A DNA stretch of 41,036 bases from an uncultured bacterium (GTDB lineage Bacteria > Omnitrophota > Gorgyraeia > Ghiorseimicrobiales > Ghiorseimicrobiaceae). Below the pieces are notes generated by a model. It ran no database searches, was not told the origin of the DNA, and was given only the letters and a program-made list of their open reading frames with translations. The stretch spans positions 1 to 41,036 of the forward strand of contig CAJVXN010000018.1 of NCBI GenBank assembly GCA_913009335.1. The letters run 5' to 3'. A program made the position numbers and the translations under genes. This document shows positions 224-5,520 of the stretch, one piece after another (the stretch's first letter is position 1; each line of letters opens with the position of its first letter).

Positions 224-1519
<1,296 letters not shown>

Positions 1520-1862: not shown

Positions 1863-1929
1863 ATTTCATGTAGGTTGTTCTTTATTATTATAAATATCGC
1901 GGGGTGGAGCAGAGGTAGCTCGTCAGGCT

Positions 1930-2567
1930 CAATGGATACAAAACTCAAAGCAGACATTGCAGAATCAGCAGTCGCAACGGAATTGCTTAGAAGAGGATTC
2001 AGAGTGTTAAAACCTTTAGGTGATCGATTGCCTTATGATTTAGCACTTGATCTTAATGGTAAACTTCTTCGCATTCAGGTGAAAAGCGCTTGGTTTAATC
2101 CGAAGACAGAGTATTATGCTGTTGATGTTAGGAGAACCAAGACTAATCGCCGGAATATGTTGCGAGAGCGTTATGATAGAGATGATTTTGATTTTGCAAT
2201 TCTGTATATTGATTCCCTAGATGTGTTTTACGTAATGCCTATTTCTGTCTTTTCAACTTATGGTAGTACAATAACTTTGATAGAGACAGATAAGAGGCAG
2301 CGTAAACCAAAATCTGCGCAATACAGGGAACGGTGGGATTTGATATCTAATGGGCTCCTCAGTCGGAAACGACTGAAGGATAACCTGTCAAATTCGGTGG
2401 AACCCTTGGAGTTAATCCAGAGGTAATACCGAGCCAAGTCCGTCAATAAGTTATGGCGGGAAGGTGTAGAGACTAGATGGCAGGGGTCCTGGAATTATGG
2501 ATCAAGGTATAGTCCAGACTACAAACGCCAATGTAATGTTGGAGGCAGTGAAAACTGTAGTGGTACG
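1930..2567 (+). ncRNA. group I intron inside tRNA-fMet
   Basis: The 638-base intron carries recognisable core elements. A GAAA-capped hairpin, CAGTCG/CGACTG, is at 2360-2375 and fits P2. A purine-rich P3-P6 region at 2379-2440 is close in style to cyanobacterial tRNA introns. The P7 strands GACTA (2471-2475) and TAGTC (2510-2514) frame the guanosine site, with the classic GTGTAGAGACTAGATGG and AAGGTATAGTCC blocks. A candidate P1 pairs exon and intron start GGCT|CA with TGGGCT at 2351-2356, including the expected U-G pair at the splice site. That puts most of the endonuclease gene in the P1 loop. Group I introns in tRNA-fMet are known from cyanobacteria; the subgroup here is not assigned. Confidence 0.9.
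1932..2426 (+). CDS. PD-(D/E)XK homing endonuclease of the group I intron
   Basis: A 164-aa protein from the ATG at 1932; an in-frame extension to 1875 exists but runs through the tRNA exon and is not credible. Residues 5-54 carry the nuclease fold: helix KADIAESAVATELLRRGF with Glu11, then LPYDLALDL with Asp36 and LLRIQVKSAW with Gln49-x-Lys51, matching the intron-associated PD-(D/E)XK group whose best-known member is I-Ssp6803I from a cyanobacterial tRNA-fMet intron. The expected role is cutting intronless tRNA-fMet alleles to spread the intron. The start codon is 2 bases inside the intron, so any ribosome site lies in the tRNA exon (GAGGT at 1912-1916, long spacing). About 25 C-terminal residues overlap the ribozyme core. 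Confidence 0.88.
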   Translation: MDTKLKADIAESAVATELLRRGFRVLKPLGDRLPYDLALDLNGKLLRIQVKSAWFNPKTEYYAVDVRRTKTNRRNMLRERYDRDDFDFAILYIDSLDVFYVMPISVFSTYGSTITLIETDKRQRKPKSAQYRERWDLISNGLLSRKRLKDNLSNSVEPLELIQR

Positions 2568-2610
2568 CATAACCTGAAGGTCGTCAGTTCGATTCTGACC
2601 CCCGCAACCA

Positions 2611-2650
2611 AAATTAAAGCCACTCGAGAGAGTGGTTTTAATTTTGCCTT
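2611..2650 (+). terminator. intrinsic terminator after tRNA-fMet
   Basis: A near-perfect 15-bp stem starts directly after the CCA: AAATTAAAGCCACTC pairs across a GAGA loop with GAGTGGTTTTAATTT. The descending strand is T-rich. Confidence 0.75.
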
Positions 2651-4834: not shown

Positions 4835-5520
4835 TAAAATGTGACCATGGCAAGAATAGCGAGAGTTGTTATACCCGATTACCCACATCACATAATACAT
4901 CGCGGCAACCGCAGAGAAAAGATTTTCTTCAATGTCGATGATAAACAAGCGTATCTTGATTTCTTAATAAAACAAGCAAAAAGATGTGGAATAGAATTTT
5001 GGGCGTATTGTTTAATGGATAATCATGTGCATTTTATAGCAGTACCTAAAAAAGAGGATAGCCTTGCAAGAGGGTTAGCTCAAACCCATAAAGAATACAC
5101 AAGAAGAATTAACTTTCGTAATAATTGGCGAGGCCATCTATGGGAAGGAAGATTTAAGTCCTGCGTTCTTAGTCAAAAACATTTATATGCCGCAGTCCGC
5201 TACGTGGAACGTAACCCGGTAAGAGCGGGCATGGTGAAGAGAGCGGAAGATTATCTTTGGTCTAGCGCAAAAGCTCATGTGCATAAAACACAAGATAGGT
5301 TTTTATCAGATAGTTTCCTGATAGAGGAGATAAGTAATTGGAGAAATTATTTAGCAGATGATAGCGATGATAAAAAATGCAATATGTTTATAGGGCATGT
5401 AGATACAGGTAGGCCATTAGGTGATAAGGAATTTATTGAAGAGCTTGAGGGAGTTATCGGAAAATCGTTGAAACGGAAGAAACCAGGGCCAAAGAAAAAA
5501 GAGAATTAAGTGTTCTGTGG
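4784..5520 (+). mobile_element. RAYT-type (REP-associated tyrosine transposase) element
   Basis: Unit holding the Y1 transposase and bounded by the inverted repeat CAGAACACTT (4797-4806) and AAGTGTTCTG (5508-5517). The left end interrupts the KAP-like frame and the right end abuts an IS3 remnant. Exact ends are estimated. Confidence 0.6.
4847..5509 (+). CDS. REP-associated tyrosine transposase (Y1/HUH family)
   Basis: A 220-aa HUH-type single-strand DNA transposase of the RAYT group. It opens with [20 protein letters not shown], typical of the family. The HUH pair is in [26 protein letters not shown] and the tyrosine-bearing helix [17 protein letters not shown] follow, then WSSAKAH. The basic C-terminus, [12 protein letters not shown], is characteristic. 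A GTG two codons upstream (4841) is possible, but the ATG at 4847 fits the family start. The frame is complete and could be active. Confidence 0.92.

Follow-up and report, generated by a model that had tools for sequence, protein, structure and literature searches.

A tRNA-fMet gene in an Omnitrophota genome split by a predicted mobile group I intron with an I-Ssp6803I-type nuclease

Introduction

What interrupts the initiator tRNA gene of an uncultured Omnitrophota bacterium, and by which route did it get there? In the open-access literature, the tRNA-fMet intron has been described in cyanobacteria only (PMC1995217, PMC8450103, PMC5733544), and I-Ssp6803I, the lone experimentally characterized member of its nuclease family there, has been described as a cyanobacterial enzyme (PMC3943268). 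An earlier note on the present locus had nevertheless proposed a tRNA-fMet gene split by a group I intron with a PD-(D/E)XK homing endonuclease, in a stretch of 41,036 nucleotides that we call the window (contig CAJVXN010000018.1). We found no prior report of such a unit in Omnitrophota in the open-access literature. As set out below, it is very likely that the locus holds a mobile tRNA-fMet/I-Ssp6803I-type group I intron that splices at U33/C34, spreads by homing, and was acquired horizontally, most likely from another Omnitrophota lineage.

Results

The joined exons form an initiator tRNA

On the unspliced window, ARAGORN makes no tRNA call at all; when the two exons (Table 1) are joined, it reports a tRNA-Met(cat) of 75 nt. 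Annotation tools of this kind overlook the initiator tRNA in intron-bearing genomes. The joined product has the CAU anticodon and, on direct reading of the sequence, C1 opposite A72 in the acceptor stem, leaving 1-72 unpaired as in initiators; the earlier note had proposed exactly this tRNA, and its coordinates were right. Another hallmark of initiator tRNAs, three G-C pairs at the foot of the anticodon stem, is incomplete in the window tRNA, where 29-41 is A-U. Since this A-U pair is also found in the intronless sister tRNAs, it is a lineage trait, and despite it the window tRNA matches tRNA-fMet in sequence and position.

Table 1. Features of the split tRNA-fMet locus (window coordinates)
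Feature	Position	Strand	Basis
Enolase (eno), upstream neighbor	230..1519	+	host yardstick
tRNA-fMet 5' exon (C1 to U33)	1898..1929	+	ARAGORN on joined exons; identity to intronless gene in G160
P1 5' strand GGCU/CA (slash, splice site), partner 2351-2356 (putative)	1926..1931	+	read by eye
Group I intron, 638 nt, at U33/C34, ending in G2567	1930..2567	+	empty site L164/L165; U1929, G2567
I-Ssp6803I-type PD-(D/E)XK homing endonuclease (predicted), 164 aa, in P1 loop	1932..2426	+	profile and structure-database matches
Ribozyme core	2348..2567	+	Rfam match, 40-core alignment, sequence reading
Guide	2351-2356	+	
P2	2357-2378	+	
P3	2384-2389/2479-2484	+	
P4-P5	2394-2432	+	
P6	2433-2465	+	
P7	2471-2475/2510-2514	+	
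P8	2485-2503	+	
P9	2519-2563	+	
tRNA-fMet 3' exon (C34 to CCA end)	2568..2610	+	ARAGORN on joined exons; intronless G160 gene
Putative intrinsic-terminator hairpin after tRNA	2617..2645	+	sequence; alignment with L164

Two genomes of the same family, G160 and G181, carry an uninterrupted tRNA-fMet. In G160 it follows the enolase gene, as in the window, and this common eno locus allows a direct comparison: the joined exons are identical to the G160 gene (L164) over 36 nt 5' and 45 nt 3' of the splice point, indicating that the insertion was exact and left the exons unaltered. The splice point itself has a 2-nt ambiguity from sequence alone, because intron and 3' exon both start with CA. Group I introns usually follow a U at the end of the 5' exon and end in G, which places the splice point at U33/C34.

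The hairpin behind the tRNA also lies 3' of the intronless tRNA in G160; a partial stem of it is listed on the minus strand. Further downstream, positions 2704-2759 resemble the cyanobacterial NsiR1 RNA at 24.7 bits, below the cut-off of 39, and are probably a terminator hairpin. At 4841-5509, an open reading frame (translation read by eye) resembles a REP-associated tyrosine transposase.

The insert has a covarying group I fold

The group I core blocks that had been pointed out in the intron were borne out by a covariance match to RF00028, the one Rfam family that covers every group I subgroup (59.5 bits, cut-off 50, E 6.8e-14). In P1, whose pairing was read by eye, the U that ends the 5' exon (U1929) forms a wobble at the splice site with G2353 of the guide, and the terminal residue is G2567, both as in group I introns; P10 would pair 2350-2352 with the CAU of the 3' exon (2568-2570). 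A covariation test drew on an alignment of 40 cores of relatives spanning eight phyla and treated P7 as a pseudoknot; the named pairs are formed in 95.2% of cells. Both-side changes occur in 41 of 58 pairs, against a mean of 31.4 after shuffling (no shuffle out of 500 reached 41), and pairing falls to 29-41% once the partner strands are shifted by one to three columns. On this covariation, the insert is a group I intron with a P3/P7 double pseudoknot. Group I introns splice themselves with a guanosine cofactor, and the structure suggests that this ribozyme would excise itself from the precursor and ligate U33 to C34 in the anticodon loop.

The intron encodes an I-Ssp6803I-type nuclease

The open reading frame in the P1 loop matches both the family profile PF11645 (PDDEXK_5; E 6e-45) and the structure of I-Ssp6803I (PDB 2OST; E 2.7e-50). 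D36 and K51 are kept in all 66 orthologues and E11 and Q49 in 65, the remaining row being unreadable at these positions, and the nuclease frame with Asp36 and Gln49-x-Lys51 that the earlier note had described is thus upheld by matches and conservation alike. Judged by these comparisons, the frame is an orthologue of I-Ssp6803I and a predicted homing endonuclease. Its dN/dS against relatives is 0.06 to 0.12, which implies purifying selection.

The 3' end of the frame overlaps P2-P5 of the ribozyme, so that translation and folding would compete. At the other end, the start codon lies only 2 nt past the 5' splice site, in line with the 2 to 9 nt found among in-intron copies of Omnitrophota, versus 18 to 70 nt in most other phyla. 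With a start codon so near the splice site, a ribosome-binding site would have to sit in the tRNA exon, and the nuclease may be produced solely from unspliced precursor. Short matches to residues 125-164 in other genomes were considered as nuclease remnants, a reading rejected since the last ~25 residues are ribozyme core in frame.

Hallmarks of the I-Ssp6803I type are a tetrameric form and cleavage of intronless tRNA-fMet DNA. By analogy with I-Ssp6803I, the window nuclease would make its cut at the anticodon of tRNA-fMet genes that lack an intron, after which repair off the intron-bearing copy would install intron and nuclease jointly.

A pattern search of the draft genome found no uninterrupted or further tRNA-fMet, although the assembly is 92.6% complete and could lack a second, intact copy. 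With an interrupted gene as the only tRNA-fMet found, splicing of the intron would be needed for life. Given this incompleteness, and with splicing being a prediction, one could argue for a degenerate insertion past splicing in a cell that uses another initiator tRNA. We regard this as extremely improbable, because all core helices are intact, the nuclease frame is open and under constraint, and another tRNA-fMet did not turn up in the search.

The unit occupies one site in at least eight phyla

A scan of ~85,000 species genomes with the window protein yielded 64 loci, mostly in Omnitrophota, a share biased by the Omnitrophota origin of the query. Other hosts are Cyanobacteria and Melainabacteria, Bacteroidota including Kapaibacteria, Deltaproteobacteria/Thermodesulfobacteriota, Acidobacteriota, Nitrospirota, Elusimicrobiota, and Uhrbacteria, so that orthologues occur in at least seven phyla besides Omnitrophota. 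All relatives with readable exons carry the insertion at U33/C34. They include Synechocystis salina (L053), whose common site confirms the proposed likeness to the cyanobacterial tRNA-fMet/I-Ssp6803I arrangement. With these loci, a family that had a lone characterized enzyme comprises dozens of members, which share a single universal site.

Among 285 Omnitrophota genomes, 59 carry an intron at the tRNA-fMet site (filled), 167 have the site empty, and 31 encode a full-length nuclease; genus g22 includes genomes of both the filled and the empty kind. Together, filled and empty sites show the outcome of insertion. Group I introns of any kind scored over the cut-off in 44 of 117 Omnitrophota genomes (38%), and nuclease matches, some of them fragments, were found in 16 of 339 cyanobacterial genomes. 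The earlier note had inferred that the unit exists outside cyanobacteria, which holds for this Omnitrophota host, and had offered a wider ancient spread as one explanation; the range of at least eight phyla, the common nuclease-ribozyme junction, and the 38% of sampled Omnitrophota with a group I intron all speak for such a spread.

The window genome itself holds four group I introns. Besides that in tRNA-fMet, they lie, by exon joins that are not unique and were picked by fit, in tRNA-Tyr(GUA) (L001, G000:C2 33323-33573), tRNA-Lys(UUU) (L002, G000:C10 8641-8888), and tRNA-Asn(GUU) (L003, G000:C29 10192-10498), the last with an HNH-like open reading frame.

The nuclease is less diverged than host enolase

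The other explanation in the earlier note, transfer of the intron/endonuclease unit, can be addressed by comparing silent divergence of nuclease and host genes. The closest nuclease belongs to a genome of another family (G108); it is 86% identical, with a dS of 0.90 (values near 1 are imprecise). The two introns are 84% identical and their upstream flanks 59%. Enolase is 70% identical between these two genomes, with silent sites saturated, and even within the family its dS against the intronless G160 is 3.3. A nuclease dS of 0.9 across families, below the enolase dS of 3.3 within one, argues that the unit moved horizontally, as proposed. That this movement postdates the split of the host lineages is well supported by these sequence comparisons; the donor would most likely have been another Omnitrophota lineage.

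Alternatively, intron and nuclease might have been inherited vertically from an Omnitrophota ancestor and lost in sister genomes. The element is common across Omnitrophota, and in an AU test a single Omnitrophota nuclease clade was not rejected (p 0.45). Yet the silent divergence of the nuclease to another family is below that of enolase to the nearest same-family genome, G160, and this sister holds the identical empty site, which makes vertical inheritance highly improbable. The same AU result leaves a nesting of other phyla among Omnitrophota nucleases unsupported. A nuclease tree with the cyanobacterial homologues, which the earlier note had called for, does not single out a donor phylum. 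Returning to horizontal acquisition, a search for the vehicle placed none of the relatives on plasmids or viral contigs and recovered only distant (~31%) phage proteins.

Nucleases inside and downstream of the intron

The context could be read for 63 distinct copies. In 46 of them the nuclease gene is inside the intron; in the other 17 it sits downstream of the completed split tRNA, in several cases right after the apparent tRNA terminator. Mapped onto the nuclease tree, the architecture changes 10 times (9 to 11 over bootstraps); the lower bound is 7 changes at bootstrap 80 and 4 when only fully supported branches count.

Two observations bear on the direction of these changes. First, the last conserved Trp codon is 15 to 16 nt from the ribozyme guide in 33 of 38 in-intron copies from multiple phyla, a constancy that points to one original nuclease-ribozyme fusion. 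Second, the free-standing Nostoc-type copy L176 ends in a C-terminal tail, AVDKESFVFSPVQFGEA, that aligns with AVQKETFVRTPVKFGEA, the translated ribozyme P2-P3-P4 of the in-intron relative L057; at the DNA level, the two align over 51 nt without gaps, and none of 2000 shuffles scores as high. As P3-P4 belongs to the ribozyme, such a tail indicates exit from the intron in some Nostoc-type cyanobacteria. Clear signals of this kind come from L176, L039, and L045 and weaker ones from L174, L041, and L047; in the cyanobacterial copies L042, L175, and L049, the tail signal is doubtful or missing. No ribozyme-derived tails were found in the downstream copies of Omnitrophota. At three cyanobacterial loci (L060, L186, and L187), a nuclease fragment lies just past an intact tRNA-fMet, as expected after intron loss.

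We therefore consider it probable that one ancient nuclease-ribozyme fusion was repeatedly split, the nuclease escaping downstream about ten times and keeping ribozyme-derived tails in some Nostoc-type copies. In the reverse scenario, a free-standing downstream nuclease would be ancestral in the wider family and the in-intron copies derived by the collaborative-homing route, which has been documented in phages (PMC3984707, PMC6083498). The roughly ten changes of architecture could be read this way, and the distant sisters that adjoin tRNA-Thr are free-standing nucleases; nevertheless, the near-constant Trp-to-guide spacing, as from a single fusion, and the tails of several Nostoc-type free-standing copies that match translated ribozyme core make this scenario unlikely. 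Repeated escape from an ancient fusion, if true, would reverse the published route from free-standing to composite, and the stages of the homing cycle could then be seen at a single site across at least eight phyla.

Several relatives show further arrangements. In six Omnitrophota loci (L166-L171), a distant sister nuclease, 30 to 36% identical and with catalytic residues kept, lies just upstream of tRNA-Thr(UGU), often within a Thr-Tyr-Gly cluster; these nucleases possibly form a free-standing lineage with a different tRNA target. A group I intron is found at the expected tRNA-Tyr place in L166, as it is in the window genome (L001), and tRNA-Tyr is intact in L167, L168, L170, and L171. In L032 and L033, an I-Ssp6803I-type gene, broken in L032, adjoins tRNA-Ser(CGA), and in L033 it lies 1.2 kb past an ORF-less tRNA-fMet intron. 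In L054, L101, and L160, a nuclease lies on the opposite strand next to an ORF-less tRNA-fMet intron of 193 nt; the nuclease frame is open into a protein of 380 residues whose start resembles a signal peptide.

Discussion

Related genomes show the tRNA-fMet site in empty, filled, nuclease-free, and nuclease-adjacent states, so that gain, decay, loss, and relocation of a homing element become countable in cellular chromosomes.

Among known systems, short anticodon-loop ribozymes also interrupt tRNA-Leu UAA, tRNA-Ile CAU, and tRNA-Arg, but these introns use other sites and are mostly nuclease-free (PMC8450103, PMC5733544). Collaborative homing has been described in phages (PMC3984707, PMC6083498), where cyanophage S-PM2 has a free-standing nuclease gene, F-CphI, next to its intron-bearing psbA (PMC6083498). 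The window differs in having its nuclease gene within the intron, whereas some relatives with a nuclease beside an ORF-less intron do resemble that system, albeit on bacterial chromosomes, in a tRNA gene, and with another nuclease family. Moreover, unlike F-CphI, some Nostoc-type free-standing copies look derived from in-intron ones. The closest counterpart is the Synechocystis I-Ssp6803I intron, which shares with the window the tRNA-fMet gene, the insertion site, and an open reading frame in the P1 loop. Its nuclease (2OST) is orthologous to that of the window (~60% identical), and the S. salina ribozyme core (L053) is homologous to the window core (~74% identical). The two differ in host phylum and in the nuclease start, which lies 20 nt past the 5' splice site in Synechocystis and 2 nt past it in the window.
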